From: Citromicrobium sp. JLT1363
Lineage (GTDB): Bacteria > Pseudomonadota > Alphaproteobacteria > Sphingomonadales > Sphingomonadaceae
Assembly: GCF_000186705.1 (NCBI RefSeq)
Contig: NZ_AEUE01000009.1
Location: 1 to 64,000, forward strand
DNA length: 64,000 bases
Direction: 5' to 3'
The position numbers and the translations under genes are program-made. Under the pieces are notes generated by a model that saw nothing but the letters and a program-made list of their open reading frames with translations, searched no databases and was not told the origin of the DNA. Positions 57,357-64,000 of the stretch are shown here, one piece after another. How positions within the stretch are numbered: position 1 is the stretch's first letter; each line of letters begins with the position of its first letter.

Positions 57357-58336
57357 TGCGGCACCGCGCCGCGCTGCTCGCGCAAGTTCGCGGGGATATT
57401 GGCATCGAACCACCGCGCCACGGGGGCAAGCGCGGGATGGGCAAGATCGCGCTCCAGCGCCTCCCACACACGCGGGATCATACCAAGGTAGCGCGGCTTG
57501 CCATCGCGCCGGTCGAGGCGCGCGAAGATGCCGACGATTTTGGTGTTCCGCTGCGCGCCCAGCAGCGCATAATCGGCATCGAACCGGTCGTCGCACTGCG
57601 CACATTCGCGGTAATGGGCCAGCATCCTTGCTTCCAGTTCCGGCGCCACGTCGCGCCGTGCATCCTGCAGCAGGGAGACAAGGTCATACGCCGGGTGGCC
57701 GACAAGCGCGTCCTGGAAATCGATCACGCCCTGTTCGTCCACGCCATCATCGGGGCGCAACAGCATGATGTTTTCCGCATGATAATCGCGCAGCACGGTG
57801 ACGCCGGGCTGCTGGCTTTCGATCAGCGGGGCGAGTGCCTTGCGCCATGCTTCATCGAAACCCTGCGTATCGACATCGAGGCCGAGCGCAGGACAATACC
57901 ATTCGGTAAACAGCTGCGCCTCGCGCAGGTAGGTCAGCTCGTCGTAAGGCGGAAAAGGCCCGGCGGACTTGCGGTGCAGATCGGCCAGCGTATCGATCGC
58001 GGCGGTATAGGCTGCTTCCTCGCCGGCTGGATTGTCGTCCAGCCAGTCGCGCATGCGCGCGTCGCCGAAATCCTCGATCAGAACCCATCCATTGTCGAGA
58101 TCCTCGGCATAGATCTGCGGCGCGCGGATCTCGTTGTCGAGCAGCCAGCGCCCGACATGCAGGAACTCGCGTGGTTCTTCGGGCGGCGGTGCGTGCATCA
58201 GCATCGCGCTCTTGCCCTGGTGGTGGAGCCGGAAATAGCGGCGGAAGCTGGCATCGCCGGTCAGCGGTGCGATCTGCGCCCCGGCCCAGCCTGCCGCGCC
58301 GAGGAAATCATGAATACCGTCAGGCAATGTCGTCAT
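57353..58336 (-). CDS. amgK: N-acetylmuramate/N-acetylglucosamine kinase AmgK
   Basis: This 327-residue phosphotransferase of the APH fold has the catalytic loop LRDYHAENIMLL and the metal-binding VIDFQDALVGHPAYD. AmgK phosphorylates MurNAc at the anomeric position; MurU, encoded immediately downstream, is its partner. I start at ATG 58336, 4 nt inside the tsaE stop, not at the longer frame. Confidence 0.9.
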   Translation of the reverse strand: MTTLPDGIHDFLGAAGWAGAQIAPLTGDASFRRYFRLHHQGKSAMLMHAPPPEEPREFLHVGRWLLDNEIRAPQIYAEDLDNGWVLIEDFGDARMRDWLDDNPAGEEAAYTAAIDTLADLHRKSAGPFPPYDELTYLREAQLFTEWYCPALGLDVDTQGFDEAWRKALAPLIESQQPGVTVLRDYHAENIMLLRPDDGVDEQGVIDFQDALVGHPAYDLVSLLQDARRDVAPELEARMLAHYRECAQCDDRFDADYALLGAQRNTKIVGIFARLDRRDGKPRYLGMIPRVWEALERDLAHPALAPVARWFDANIPANLREQRGAVPQ

Positions 58337-58776
58337 GGCGCGCGTCCTAGCCAATCTGCCCCGCATTCGACAATCGCCAAACGCGTATCGCCCCGATCCG
58401 ACAGCGAAATCGAGAGGCAGGCGGGTTCATGGCCGAAGCCGCCCGCCTTTTCCGGCCACTCGGCGATCAGCACCGCGCCTTCGCGGTAATCTTCCAGCCC
58501 AAGCTCCTCGGCCTCGGACGGGTGTTCGAGGCGATAGAAATCCGCGTGCGCCACGGGGGGATCGAGCGCGTCGTACATCTCGATCAGCGTGAAGGTGGGC
58601 GAGGGAACCTCGCCTTCGTGGCCTGCTGCGCGCAGGATGGCGCGTGCCAGCGTTGTCTTGCCCGCCCCCAGCGGGCCGGACAGCGCGACAACGTCGCCCG
58701 CACGCATCCTTGCGGCAATCCGCGCGCCTAAATCCTCCACCGCAGCGAGGTCGGGAAGCTCCACGGGTTCACTCAT
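58333..58776 (-). CDS. tsaE: tRNA threonylcarbamoyladenosine synthesis ATPase TsaE
   Basis: This 147-residue P-loop ATPase has Walker A GPLGAGKTT (34-42) and the characteristic SPTFTLIEMY and HADFYRLEHPSEAEELGLEDY segments. It works with TsaB and TsaD to form t6A at position 37 of ANN-decoding tRNAs. It overlaps the DivL-like gene upstream and amgK downstream by 4 nt each. Confidence 0.95.
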   Translation of the reverse strand: MSEPVELPDLAAVEDLGARIAARMRAGDVVALSGPLGAGKTTLARAILRAAGHEGEVPSPTFTLIEMYDALDPPVAHADFYRLEHPSEAEELGLEDYREGAVLIAEWPEKAGGFGHEPACLSISLSDRGDTRLAIVECGADWLGRAP

Positions 58777-61124
58777 GACGCGCGCGGCAGCGTCATGGTG
58801 ACGCTGGTGCCAACTCCCTTCTGCGACTGGATTTCGAACCGGCCCCCATGTGCCTCGATCAATTGCCTGGCAAGTGGCAGGCCCAGTCCCTGTCGCCGCG
58901 TCGTATCGCTGCCGCCATCGTCGCGCATGCCGTCGAGCGCTCGGGTCAGCTCGGCTTCTTCCATGCCACGCCCATTATCCGAAATCACGATGCGTGCCCC
59001 GCCCTCATGCGCGGAAATATCCACAAGGATGCGCCCGTTTTCGCCGCAAGCCTCGATGGCATTGTCGAGCAGCTGGCCTATCGCGCGGCCCAGCTGGCGC
59101 GGGTCCGCCGCCAGCTTGAGCGACTGGCTGCCCCGCAGGTCGAGCGTGATCGACTTCGCCTCGATCGCATCCTCGCGCGCCCGCGCAACCCCGGCGACAA
59201 ACGCCAGCAGCGACAATTCGCGCCGCGCAATCGGGAGAAGGCCCGCTTCGCTCTGCGAGAGGTCGAGCACGTTTTCCACCTGATCGGTAAGGCGCGCGAC
59301 CGATTCGAGAATGGCCGCGACATATTCCTTCGCCCCATCGCTCAGCGGCCCGGCAACCTCGGCCTGCAGCAGCTCCGCAAAGCCGCCGATGGAGGTGAGC
59401 GGCGTGCGGAATTCGTAGGACATGTTGGCGAGGAAACGGGTCTTCACCTTGTCCGCCTGTTCCAGTGCCTCCGCCCGGTCGCGCAGAGCCATCTCCGCCT
59501 GTTCGTTGGCGGTCACATCCAGCGTGGTGAGCAGGCCGTTGCCATCGGGCAGCGGGATGCCCGCGAACTCGATGGTCCGGCCATCGGCCAGCTGCAACCG
59601 CCCCGCCCGCTCCTTGCGGTCGAGCGTGGCGGAACGGATCACCTCGGCGACGCCCTTGATCTGCCGTGGTCGGGCAAGGTTGCGCTCTATCATGTCGAGC
59701 AGCGCATCGACGGAAGGATGGCTGTCCAGCGCGTCTGCTTCCAGCCCCCAGGTTTCGGGGAAGCTGTGGTTCCACAATTGCAGCGTCCCGTCGGGCGCGA
59801 ACACCGCCAGCGCTTCGAAGAGGCTGTCGAGCATGGCGGTGCGCGTGCGCAGCAGGGTATCGCGGTTGGCCGCAAGCGAGAGCTGTTCGGTACGGTCTTC
59901 GAGGATCAGCGCGAGCCCGCCGTCGGGCATCGGCTGGCCGACGACCGAAAGGTGCGTGCCATCAGACAGCGGCCAATCCTCTTCCTGCGTCGCATCCTCG
60001 CCGAACCAGTCCACGCGGTCCTTGCGCCAGGTCGGGAAGTCGCGGACTTCGGGCAGGCGGCCCTCGTCGCGCGCATCGCTCAGCATGCGTTCGAAGGATG
60101 TGCCCAGCGGCCCGGAACCGGGGCGCATGCCCAGCAGACGGCGGAACGGCTGGTTGGCGAAGGTCAGCTTGCGCTCTCCATCGAACTGCGCGACGCCGAC
60201 CGAGAGCCGGTCGAGCATGCTGCGCTGCGCTTCACGGTAGGCGCGATGCTGGCGCGCCTGGTCTTCCTGTTCCTGGATATCGACCGCGTAGCCCGCCACC
60301 CCTTCTTCCCCCAGCGGCAGGTCGGACACGCGAAAGCGCCGCCGCACCCCGTCAACACTGGTGACGGAGACGACCCGCTCGATAGGCTCGCCCGTCACGG
60401 AGGCTTCGCGCGCGACATCGGCGGGGATCGCACCGTCGACCGCCTCGACCAGCTCGATCTGCTGGTCGATGACGCTTTGCGCATCCTCGGCACCCACTGC
60501 GGCGACATAGGCCTTGTTGACCAGCTGCAGCTGCATGTCCGCATTGCGGAACCACATCGGCGTGGGGGCCGCCTCGATCAGGCCGACCAGCGCCGCGAAA
60601 TCGGACCGGGCGCGCGCCGTTTCCTTGCGCATGCGGCTGAGTTCCAGCTCGCTCTCGCTGAAGTCGAACACCCAGATCAGTGCGGCGCCGCCGGGCGACA
60701 CCTGCGGGTCGGCCAGGCTGCCGCGCAGTGCGAGGCTGCGCGAGGACCCGGGCAGCGTCACCGCCATGCGAAACGGCGCGGCGGATTTCTGCGCCAGGCG
60801 GACCTTTTCGGTCAGTTCGTCCAGCTGGTCCGAGGTCAGGCCACGGTCGGGATACTTGGCCAGTTCACCGAGGAACTGCGGAAGCTGATCGAGCCCGAGC
60901 CAGTGCGCCAGCCGCTCCGACCCTTCCAGCCGTCCGTCGCTGCGCACGAGCAGCGCGGCCGTTGGCGCCTCGTCAAGCAGCCGGTTGAGGCGCATGGCCG
61001 TGCGCCGCGCGGCGTCCGCACCGCGCGCGCGGGCACCCGCGGCGATCATCAGCCACGCAGCGCCAGCCGTCCACGCCGCCAGCAGAAGGCCGAGAAGCGC
61101 CAGCGCGGTTGAGCCAAGGTCCAT
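58773..61124 (-). CDS. divL: DivL-like PAS sensor protein with tyrosine in place of the phospho-accepting histidine
   Basis: This encodes 783 residues. An N-terminal transmembrane helix (ALALLGLLLAAWTAGAAWLM) is followed by several PAS-like domains (about 50-535) and a kinase-like core. The dimerisation helix reads NMSYEFRTPLTSIGGF, so Tyr570 replaces the usual His. The ATP-binding domain is intact (LLDNAIEACG, DNGRGM, GLGLPLARQL). Caulobacter DivL has the same replacement (Tyr550), is similar in length, and controls cell-cycle phosphorelay through CckA. The gene context (tsaE downstream, ahcY upstream) agrees. It overlaps tsaE by 4 nt. Confidence 0.85.
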   Translation of the reverse strand: MDLGSTALALLGLLLAAWTAGAAWLMIAAGARARGADAARRTAMRLNRLLDEAPTAALLVRSDGRLEGSERLAHWLGLDQLPQFLGELAKYPDRGLTSDQLDELTEKVRLAQKSAAPFRMAVTLPGSSRSLALRGSLADPQVSPGGAALIWVFDFSESELELSRMRKETARARSDFAALVGLIEAAPTPMWFRNADMQLQLVNKAYVAAVGAEDAQSVIDQQIELVEAVDGAIPADVAREASVTGEPIERVVSVTSVDGVRRRFRVSDLPLGEEGVAGYAVDIQEQEDQARQHRAYREAQRSMLDRLSVGVAQFDGERKLTFANQPFRRLLGMRPGSGPLGTSFERMLSDARDEGRLPEVRDFPTWRKDRVDWFGEDATQEEDWPLSDGTHLSVVGQPMPDGGLALILEDRTEQLSLAANRDTLLRTRTAMLDSLFEALAVFAPDGTLQLWNHSFPETWGLEADALDSHPSVDALLDMIERNLARPRQIKGVAEVIRSATLDRKERAGRLQLADGRTIEFAGIPLPDGNGLLTTLDVTANEQAEMALRDRAEALEQADKVKTRFLANMSYEFRTPLTSIGGFAELLQAEVAGPLSDGAKEYVAAILESVARLTDQVENVLDLSQSEAGLLPIARRELSLLAFVAGVARAREDAIEAKSITLDLRGSQSLKLAADPRQLGRAIGQLLDNAIEACGENGRILVDISAHEGGARIVISDNGRGMEEAELTRALDGMRDDGGSDTTRRQGLGLPLARQLIEAHGGRFEIQSQKGVGTSVTMTLPRAS

Positions 61125-61135
61125 GAGAATCAGCT

Positions 61136-61173
61136 AGGCCCGGCGATGGCTGCTTGGCAACCATCCCGGGCCT
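61136..61173. repeat. hairpin between ahcY and divL
   Basis: AGGCCCGG, a bulged C, GATGG, an 11-nt loop and CCATCCCGGGCCT form a 13-bp stem in the 90-bp gap between ahcY and divL. There is no T-run on either strand, so it is more likely an mRNA-processing or stabilising stem than a complete terminator. Confidence 0.45.
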
Positions 61174-61214
61174 GCATGAGGCGAGGAATTCCCCGCCCCA
61201 ACGCTTTCGCGCGC

Positions 61215-62612
61215 TTAGTAGCGGTAATGCTCGGGCTTGTAGGGCCCTTCCTTGGGCACGCCGATGTAGTCGGCCTGCTCGTCGCTCATCTCGGTCAGAT
61301 TGACGTTGAGCTTCTGCAGGTGAAGCGCGGCAACCTCTTCGTCGAGGTGCTTGGGCAGCACGTGCACCGCGTTGTCGTACTGATCGGCCTTCGTATAGAG
61401 CTCGATCTGGGCCAGCACCTGGTTGGTGAAGCTGGCGCTCATCACGAAGCTGGGGTGGCCGGTCGCATTGCCGAGGTTGAGCAGGCGGCCCTTCGAGAGA
61501 AGGATCATCCGCTTGCCGTCGGGGAACTCGACCAGATCGACCTGCGGCTTGATCTCGGTCCACTTCATGTTCGACAGCGCATCGACCTGGATCTCGTTGT
61601 CGAAGTGGCCGATGTTACCCACGATCGCCATGTCCTTCATGGCGCGCATGTGGTCGACGGTGATGACGTCCTTGTTGCCCGTGGTGGTCACGAAGATGTC
61701 GGCACGCTTGGTCGCCTCTTCCATCGTCACGACCTCGAACCCGTCCATTGCTGCCTGCAGGGCGCAGATCGGGTCGATCTCGGTGACCATGACGCGCGCA
61801 CCGGCACCGGCGAGCGAGGCCGCCGAACCCTTGCCGACATCACCGTAGCCCGCGACGCAGGCGACCTTGCCGGCCATCATCACATCGGTGCCGCGGCGGA
61901 TGCCGTCGACCAGCGATTCCTTGCAGCCGTACTTGTTGTCGAACTTCGACTTGGTGACGGAGTCGTTCACGTTGATCGCCGGGAACGGCAGCTTGCCCGC
62001 CTTCGACAGCTGGTAGAGGCGGTTGACGCCGGTGGTGGTCTCTTCCGAGACGCCGCGCACGGTTTCCACCGTCTTGGTCAGGTAGCCGGGCTTGCGTTCG
62101 ATGAAGGCCTTGAGGGCGCGCTGCATTTCGCGCTCTTCCTCGTTGGTCGGCGCGGGCATTTCCTCGCCCGCTTCGATCCGGGCGCCCCACAGCGCAAACA
62201 TGGTGGCATCGCCGCCATCGTCGAGGATCATGTTGCAGGGCTCGTCACCCCAGTCGAAGATCTTGGCGACGTAGTCCCAGTAATCGGCCAGCGTCTCGCC
62301 CTTGATCGCGAACACGGGGATGCCCTTGTCGGCGATGTAGGCCGCGGCGTGATCCTGCGTCGAATAGATGTTGCAGGTGGTCCAGCGCACGTCGGCGCCC
62401 AGTTCCACCAGCGTTTCGATCAGCACGCCGGTCTGGATCGTCATGTGCAGCGAACCCGCGATCTTCGCGCCCTTCAGGGGCTTGCTCTCGCCGTACTGTT
62501 CGCGCAGCGCCATCAGGCCCGGCATTTCGGTTTCGGCGATTTCGATCTCCTTGCGGCCATAGTCCGCAAGATCGATGTCCTTGACGATGTAGTCCTGTTC
62601 CTTGGTAGCCAT
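61215..62612 (-). CDS. ahcY: S-adenosylhomocysteine hydrolase
   Basis: This 465-residue NAD-dependent enzyme splits SAH into adenosine and homocysteine, keeping methylation running. The NAD-binding motif is GYGDVGKGS. Other signatures are [21 protein letters not shown], the substrate segment [11 protein letters not shown], and the C-terminal KPEHYRY that closes the neighbouring active site. The start at ATG 62612 has AAAGGAG upstream. The promoter region (62711-62739) contains a perfect 20-bp palindrome. Confidence 0.97.
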
Positions 62613-62710
62613 GCTTGCTCCTTTGGGCTTTGTGGGCATACGCCGGCTTGGCGCAGGGAACCCGGGGAATGTTCCGTTGTGCGCGATTCAGTGCCGCGCT
62701 TGTTTCGCGG

Positions 62711-62739
62711 CCAATATAAAGACTTCTTTATATCTGCAA
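62711..62739 (-). promoter_or_regulatory. ahcY promoter with palindromic operator (SahR/ArsR-type candidate)
   Basis: On the minus strand TTGCAG (62739-62734), 17 nt, TATTGG (62716-62711). The spacer and part of the -10 are occupied by the perfect palindrome ATATAAAGACTTCTTTATAT (62714-62733; arms ATATAAAGA and TCTTTATAT around CT). SahR, an ArsR-family repressor that senses SAH, is known to control ahcY and methionine genes in Proteobacteria, and AT-rich palindromes of this form are what I recall for it. The regulator gene is not in the window. Confidence 0.65.
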
Positions 62740-62940
62740 GCGCCGAGAGCCACAGGTGGTGCGGCAAATCCGTTGGGTGGACGCGTGCAGCCCGAAAAAC
62801 GGGATAGATTCCGCGCATGATCCGTAGGAATGGTGAACCCGCAGCCGGGCTCTGTCGCCAGCGCGTCTCAAGGGATTGCCCGAAGACCGGCGGCAGGCCA
62901 CAAGCGGGCCCGCAACTCTCAGGTGAAGGACTACCGACCC

Positions 62941-63420
62941 ATGAATATTTCCGAAGGCGACACGATCCCCCAGGTGAAGATTTCCAAGGCCACCGAAGGC
63001 GGGCCGGAACCGGTCGACACGCGCGAGTTCTTCGCGGGCCGCAAGGTGGCGCTGTTCGCCGTGCCCGGCGCTTTCACCCCGACCTGTTCGGCCAAGCACC
63101 TGCCCGGTTTTGCGGAGAAAGCGGAAGAACTGAAGTCCAAGGGCGTGGACGAGATCGCCTGCATTTCGGTCAATGATGCATTCGTCATGGGTGCATGGCA
63201 GCAGGCCGACGGCAGCAAGGATGTGACCATGCTGGCAGACGGCAATGGCGAATTCGCCGAAGCCGTGGGCCTCACCATGGATGGATCGGGCTTCGGCATG
63301 GGCAAGCGCAGCCAGCGCTATTCGATGATCGTCGACGACGGCAAGGTCCGCAAGCTGAACGTCGAGAAGCCGGGCGATTTCAGCGTCTCGAGCGCGGAGC
63401 ACATGCTCGGCCAGCTCTGA
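62941..63420 (+). CDS. peroxiredoxin (Prx5/AhpE type)
   Basis: This 159-residue protein reduces peroxides through Cys49 in VPGAFTPTCS, the Prx5 active-site signature (PxxxT/SxxC). SVNDAFVMGAW and GLGMRSxRY-like (GMGKRSQRYSMIVDDG) match bacterial Prx5. There is no second conserved Cys, so it is probably 1-Cys and recycled by glutathione or thioredoxin. ATG 62941 is preceded by GGTGAAGG; the longer frame has no support. A terminator follows at 63447. Confidence 0.92.
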   Translation: MNISEGDTIPQVKISKATEGGPEPVDTREFFAGRKVALFAVPGAFTPTCSAKHLPGFAEKAEELKSKGVDEIACISVNDAFVMGAWQQADGSKDVTMLADGNGEFAEAVGLTMDGSGFGMGKRSQRYSMIVDDGKVRKLNVEKPGDFSVSSAEHMLGQL

Positions 63421-63446
63421 CGAACCGGCTTTGCCGATAGGCATGG

Positions 63447-63481
63447 GGGCGACCGCTCGGAGTGGAGCGGTCGCCCTTTTT
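63447..63481 (+). terminator. Rho-independent terminator after the peroxiredoxin gene
   Basis: A perfect 12-bp stem GGGCGACCGCTC (63447-63458) and GAGCGGTCGCCC (63465-63476) with a 6-nt loop, followed by TTTTT (63477-63481). It also lies just beyond the convergent folE stop, but the minus strand has no T-run. Confidence 0.9.
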
Positions 63482-63485
63482 CGTA

Positions 63486-64000
63486 TCAGTAGCCCATCAG
63501 GCTGAGAACTTCCTTGCGGCTGCGCTCGTCGTCGCGAAATACGCCCATCATCCGGCTGGTGACCATGCCGACGCCGGGCGTGCGCACCCCGCGCGCGGTC
63601 ATGCAGGCATGGCTTGCCTCGATGACGACCGCCACGCCTTCGGGCTTCAGATTTTCCCAGATGCACTGCGCGACCTCCGCGGTCAGCCGCTCCTGCACCT
63701 GAAGGCGGCGGGCATAGCCGTGCAGCACACGGGCCAGCTTCGAAATTCCCACCACGAAGTCGGTCGGCAGATAGGCGATGTGCGCCACGCCGATGATCGG
63801 TGCCATGTGGTGCTCGCAGTGCGACTGGAAGGGGATATCCTTCAGCAGCACGATTTCGTCGTAGCCGCCGACTTCCTCGAACACGCGGGACAGGTGGACC
63901 GCAGGGTCCTCCTCGTATCCCTGGCAATATTCCTTCCAGGCGCGCGCGACGCGCTTGGGTGTATCGATCAACCCCTCGCGCGTGGGATCGTCCCCCGTCC
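63486..64000 (-). CDS. folE: GTP cyclohydrolase I (5' end cut by window end)
   Basis: The gene's 3' part (about 171 codons) is present. It converts GTP to dihydroneopterin triphosphate, the first step of folate synthesis. Visible are GDDPTREGL-DTPKRVARAW, the zinc-binding HCEHHMAPIIG, ISKLARVLHGYARRLQVQERLT and SHACMTARGV with the third ligand Cys. The frame stays open to the window edge, so the start lies outside. An internal TTG (63971) is not a start, because conserved residues precede it. Confidence 0.95.
   Translation of the reverse strand, partial: TGDDPTREGLIDTPKRVARAWKEYCQGYEEDPAVHLSRVFEEVGGYDEIVLLKDIPFQSHCEHHMAPIIGVAHIAYLPTDFVVGISKLARVLHGYARRLQVQERLTAEVAQCIWENLKPEGVAVVIEASHACMTARGVRTPGVGMVTSRMMGVFRDDERSRKEVLSLMGY

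Follow-up and report, generated by a model that had tools for sequence, protein, structure and literature searches.

The window, i.e., the whole stretch of DNA analysed here, comprises the first 64,000 nucleotides of contig NZ_AEUE01000009.1 of the sphingomonad Citromicrobium sp. JLT1363. It contains, on the minus strand, ahcY, the gene for S-adenosylhomocysteine (SAH) hydrolase, and, upstream of this gene at positions 62714-62733, the 20-mer ATATAAAGACTTCTTTATAT. When the 20-mer is read on the other strand, it mismatches at the two central bases only, and it is therefore made up of two perfect 9-bp arms around CT. We think it very likely, on the strength of the sequence comparisons given below, that the 20-mer is an operator of SahR, the SAH-responsive ArsR-family regulator of the S-adenosylmethionine (SAM) cycle. 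The features at the locus, in the direction of transcription, are as follows:

62734..62739, minus strand: predicted -35 box TTGCAG of ahcY, in the same position as the box at sahR (32 of 38 loci)
62714..62733, no strand: predicted SahR operator, arms ATATAAAGA (62714-62722) and TCTTTATAT (62725-62733) around CT, with the same pattern at metK and sahR
62711..62716, minus strand: predicted -10 box TATTGG of ahcY, overlapping the operator by three bases
62613..62704, minus strand: predicted ahcY leader, about 92 nt, its start site set 6 bp after the -10 box (a distance taken from the available part of PMC8407463)
61215..62612 (stop included), minus strand: ahcY, SAH hydrolase, 465 aa from the ATG at 62612 (Pfam AdoHcyase 7.3e-142, AdoHcyase_NAD 7.8e-79)

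On the minus strand, the region upstream of ahcY reads TTGCAG, then ATATAAAGAAGTCTTTATAT, then TGG. An earlier reading of this DNA from its letters alone (the original prediction) had described a perfect 20-bp palindrome sitting precisely between TTGCAG and TATTGG, with a spacing of 17 nt. The palindrome is real and the spacing is as described, but the match is perfect only over the two arms on either side of the unmatched CT, and the 20-mer, being longer than the 17-nt spacer, fills it and runs on into TATTGG, taking in its first three bases. When the window was shuffled 100 times, matches to the 20-mer at up to three mismatches averaged 0.00.

Copies of the palindrome and the SahR-like protein

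We searched the whole genome (3.12 Mb in 26 contigs) with the pattern ATATAAAGANNTCTTTATAT, its centre left free, at up to three mismatches, with the reversed pattern as a control. The pattern occurs at three places and the reversed control at none: before ahcY, 15 nt before metK, and 10 nt before the ATG of a gene encoding an ArsR-methyltransferase fusion protein (sahR). The last of these lies on another contig than ahcY and is followed, with overlapping gene ends, by metF and then by the two halves of a split metH. The SahR-like protein carries an ArsR helix-turn-helix (HTH) domain (PF01022, 2.8e-9, 37.2 bits against a cut-off of 22), to which a methyltransferase domain is fused (PF08241, 1.6e-24), and it matches NF033788 at 70.9 bits (cut-off 55). 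Among the seven ArsR-type HTH matches in the genome, it is the only one with a site at its own start. The original prediction had proposed SahR control of ahcY and had named metF, metH, metK and an ArsR-family gene as the places where the palindrome should recur. It does recur before metK and before sahR-metF-metH-metH, and an ArsR-family gene adjoins one of the sites, which supports SahR control of ahcY as a prediction from sequence. Within the sahR operon, methionine synthase is split (L004, 9740-13506) into a homocysteine-methyltransferase part and the rest, and glycine-cleavage genes, named by eye, appear to come after it.

A SahR regulon of Alpha- and Deltaproteobacteria was reportedly described by Novichkov et al. 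in 2014. In the available part of Leyn et al. 2014 (PMC4239095), the SahR regulon of these two classes is given a 20-bp palindromic motif and a core consisting of sahR, ahcY, metH, metF and metK, with 7 of 7 Sphingomonadales genomes included, and SahR is described as SAH-responsive in Desulfovibrio. The system described here shares with that regulon the ArsR-family protein, the 20-bp palindromic operator, the targets ahcY, metK, metF and metH, and apparently an autoregulated gene, as suggested by the site at the regulator's own start; no difference was seen that excludes membership. In Ensifer, according to the available part of PMC8877191, sahR is a gene of 1023 bp whose expression goes up in a sahR mutant. 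The SamR regulon of Xanthomonadales, as outlined in the same part of PMC4239095, also has a SahR-like ArsR protein and methionine-cycle targets, but the 20-mer operator here differs in its letters, and its targets include ahcY.

The kind of site is already known; its position inside the promoter is unusual for the family. The available part of PMC4239095 mentions neither the promoter geometry of each target, nor the shift in geometry at ahcY within the genus, nor the apparent replacement of ahcY, all of which were found here. A literature search on SahR operator geometry in sphingomonads gave no paper on it by title or start of abstract, most subscription journals lying outside the search. No paper on the letters of the operator motif was found by title, none was found on ahcY transfer in Sphingomonadales, and neither ArsR nor SahR occurs in the available text of a Novosphingobium DNA affinity purification sequencing (DAP-seq) paper (PMC12352068).

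We infer binding at these sites, SAH as the ligand, repression, and the promoter boxes in this genus. With a SahR dimer seated on the 20-mer, the promoter spacer and part of the -10 box would be covered, and RNA polymerase would be kept off ahcY. Most likely, SahR free of SAH would sit on its operators and block ahcY, metK and sahR-metF-metH; a build-up of SAH would lead to its binding SahR, probably in the methyltransferase-like domain, and to release of the operators. Transcription of ahcY, metK and sahR-metF-metH would then rise together, SAH would be hydrolysed, and the methyl cycle would run faster. A guess from raw sequence has thereby been put to the test and become a regulon call in a genus that has received little study.

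Site and protein across the family

The family survey covered 99 genomes from 94 genera, with the site counted at up to two mismatches and a SahR-like protein at an E-value of 1e-20. The site, with a varying centre, was found in 84 of the 99 genomes, the reversed control giving 0 matches in every genome, and the protein was found in 88. Both are present in 83 genomes, the protein only in five, the site only in one and neither in ten (Fisher p 2e-9, with the table compiled by hand and the genomes treated as independent, i.e., ignoring their kinship). Among the 75 sites listed, which come from 30 genomes, 27 lie before sahR, 25 before ahcY, 20 before metK and three elsewhere; of these last, one lies before metF-metH (L036) and one is more than 1.5 kb from any of the seven query genes (L035). 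The best listed site in the 29 genomes besides that of the window is at ahcY in 14, sahR in 11, metK in two, metF in one and none of these in one.

At ahcY, an operator with up to three mismatches is present in 71 of 95 genomes (G097, where ahcY is a fragment at a contig end, was left out). It occurs in 70 of the 86 genomes with SahR and in one of the nine without (p 4.6e-5). The reversed control at three mismatches gave one match in 16 genomes (in G014). In G017, which lacks SahR, a three-mismatch site lies 84 nt upstream of metK (L138, 1501-1520) and may be a relic or a chance match.

These counts also bear on the idea that another dimeric regulator with the same targets binds the site, the ArsR-methyltransferase gene being merely one of those targets. 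Such a regulator would fit the presence of seven ArsR-type HTH matches in the genome, only one of which carries the site, and the existence of one genome in 99 (G025) with a site and no detected SahR. However, site and SahR-like protein agree in 93 of the 99 genomes, and 27 of the 30 listed genomes have the site at the gene for the protein itself. As for G025, one site there lies at base 2 of a contig, and the assembly may therefore lack the gene next to it. We therefore hold a different regulator to be very unlikely.

It is exceedingly unlikely that the palindrome is an RNA hairpin, part of a riboswitch, or mere AT-rich promoter sequence with no protein partner. The 20-mer is indeed AT-rich and lies in a promoter region, but its 2-nt loop cannot close a hairpin, it would not be transcribed from the predicted promoter, and chance composition would have to account for arms that recur around a varying centre in most of the family and not in the reversed control. 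The original prediction had seen no riboswitch of SAH type at ahcY, and this is borne out: no Rfam family reached its gathering score in 58000-64000, the best of four weak matches having an E-value of 3.5 (in 62500-63000). SAH, SAM-SAH and SAM-alpha riboswitches do the same metabolic job in other proteobacteria (available part of PMC4239095), whereas here Rfam gave nothing at threshold around ahcY and no match in the metK and sahR loci L002 and L003. A riboswitch or attenuator was also rejected for ahcY loci that lack the operator or SahR, with 0 Rfam matches in L079, L088, L090, L098, L100 and L105.

Promoter geometry at sahR, metK and ahcY

We compared the position of the operator at the three targets. 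Among 38 sahR loci, nine of which come from the window's own close group, a TT[GAT][CT]A box stands immediately before the operator in 32. An ATG lies 9-13 nt past the operator in 34 of them (counted by eye, with its frame checked for the window's genome only), and a Shine-Dalgarno-like string was seen in one of the 38. The commonest spacer in the available part of PMC8407463 is 17 bp and the commonest distance from the -10 box to the start is 6 bp; if these values are assumed, the sahR operator would fill the spacer, and the mRNA is expected to be leaderless or nearly so. At metK, the operator is present in 20 of 30 loci, and in 17 of these 20 a -10-like CTA is seen by eye upstream of it (TTTAGG takes the place of CTA in the window's genome), which would place the metK operator close to the start site or beyond it.

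At ahcY, 62 of the 71 operator regions in the family have a TTG 0-10 nt downstream of the operator and, at promoter spacing after it, NTA; arrangements of this TTG-N17 type averaged 0.34 over 1000 shuffles and never exceeded 3. The TTG follows the operator without a gap in 53 of the 62 and after 5 or 6 nt in the remaining nine; the promoter thus moves as a unit relative to the operator. Three SahR-less genomes were scored with a promoter model: G070 has kept the family-type ahcY promoter with the operator absent, and in G069 and G008 no family-type ahcY promoter stands out from shuffles.

The window's genus is arranged differently. Nine of its ten genomes carry the identical 20-mer, which occupies the spacer between the -35 and -10 boxes as the operator does at sahR. 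The -35 box reads TTGCAG in eight genomes and TTGCAC in one, and the -10 box reads TATTGG in three and TATGGG in six; the tenth genome, G106, has the family-type arrangement. The downstream TTG-N17 arrangement was found in 0 of the eight genus genomes scored. A family-type promoter for the window's ahcY was tried and rejected: the model trained on relatives, run within the genus on G000 and G006 only, scored 0.5 in G000 (equalled by 28 of 60 shuffles) and 2.5 in G006 (18 of 60). Outside the genus, only G043 among 69 operator-bearing genomes has a TTNCA box before its ahcY operator; this box reads TTACA, and a TTG box follows the operator as well.

A generic consensus promoter scan found no promoter at the predicted ahcY boxes. 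Nevertheless, TATTGG is acceptable as a -10 box, because the T at -7 is absent from over 80% of the sigma-70 promoters of the sphingomonad Novosphingobium, as it is from many alphaproteobacterial -10 boxes (both from the available part of PMC8407463). The ahcY promoter of the original prediction, with its putative boxes, is credible and peculiar to the window's genus. The spacer position that the original prediction gave for the palindrome holds for this genus and for sahR, but most ahcY operators of the family lie just upstream of the -35 box.

This last point leads to an alternative in which SahR does bind the site but what it does at ahcY is set by geometry: in most of the family it would act from just upstream of the -35 box, where it might activate transcription or mask an UP-like element, and only in the window's genus would it be a simple block. 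In its favour, the 62 ahcY regions with a TTG after the operator put the operator centre near -45, and the operator lies in the spacer at sahR and in the window's genus. A dimer abutting the -35 box can, however, equally act as a repressor if it shuts out sigma region 4 or the alpha C-terminal domains, and the available part of PMC8877191 calls the Ensifer SahR a predicted repressor. For the window itself, this alternative predicts the same outcome as repression by a SahR dimer in the spacer. We regard it as improbable, and we would like to note that the sign of SahR control at ahcY is less certain in the relatives whose operator lies beside the -35 box. With three promoter geometries for one regulator, it can be asked how operator position sets the effect of SahR.

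Further downstream, the ahcY leader (62605-62680, minus strand) is conserved within the genus except at its flanks. An earlier ATG (ATGCCC) with a better ribosome site lies 27 nt before the ahcY start; it is in frame in the window and out of frame in G104.

Origin and surroundings of ahcY

The AhcY protein of the window is 87% identical to those of two other genera (G051 and G077) and 76% identical to that of G106, from its own genus. In the AhcY tree (loci L076-L105 and L141-L148), nine genus genomes group with G051 and G077 (99/94), apart from G106, and a genus clade is rejected by the approximately unbiased test (p-AU 1.4e-5, with nine of the ten genus rows, G103 being left out because its locus L145 is cut at a contig end). 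The divergent peroxiredoxin beside ahcY is 82% identical to that of G106 and 65-70% identical to those of G051 and G077, the genus clade being weakly supported in the peroxiredoxin tree (64/54). On the other side of ahcY, the kinase gene has 69-72% identity to G106 and G096 and 48% to G051; no kinase gene beside ahcY was found in G077. The SahR tree places the ten genus genomes together (99/90). Judging from these comparisons, the ahcY of the nine genus genomes is probably a foreign copy that replaced the native one in place, both neighbours being native-looking.

We are evenly divided on a fuller account, in which the foreign ahcY would have taken the place of the native copy, between native neighbours, in the common ancestor of the nine genus genomes that carry it. 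The host SahR would now act through an operator in a new spot, i.e., in the -35/-10 spacer as at sahR and not beside the -35 box. The link between regulator and gene would have been kept and the promoter mechanics changed, possibly from an upstream-acting site to a simple block. The shift in geometry and the apparent replacement together raise the question of whether an enzyme gene from elsewhere has been wired into the host regulon.

Several observations weigh against these readings. As regards the SahR operator, sixteen of the 86 SahR genomes have no ahcY operator at three mismatches, and the SahR-bearing G030, G032, G038, G080 and G092 have no site at two (G038 has one at three). The position of the ahcY operator beside the -35 box in most relatives fits a role other than simple blocking. 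The fit to the published alphaproteobacterial SahR motif covers length, palindromy and target genes, not individual letters. As regards the ahcY replacement, a clade of the ten genus genomes is also rejected by MetK (p-AU 0.0024, loci L106-L135 and L225-L232), and G106 thus does not fall cleanly with its genus for all genes; either it is atypical for the genus, or MetK has undergone an exchange of its own.

The peroxiredoxin gene was considered as the target of the operator and rejected: seven of 30 family loci showed no peroxiredoxin within the stretch, and their operator nevertheless stands at ahcY. The gene after ahcY (58773-61124, minus strand) encodes a PAS-domain kinase that reads MSYEFRTPL at the place expected to hold the phosphate-accepting histidine, and this kinase presumably resembles DivL. 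Genes for TsaE and then for an AmgK-like kinase lie beyond it. In Brucella, ahcY, divL and tsaE share one long operon (available part of PMC9491525), which raises the possibility that the ahcY operator has an influence on a cell-cycle gene as well. In the gap that separates ahcY from the kinase gene (61125-61217, minus strand), strong GC-rich hairpins (-59 kcal/mol, z -6.4) can form with no T run; they could act as a partial terminator or protect an mRNA end.
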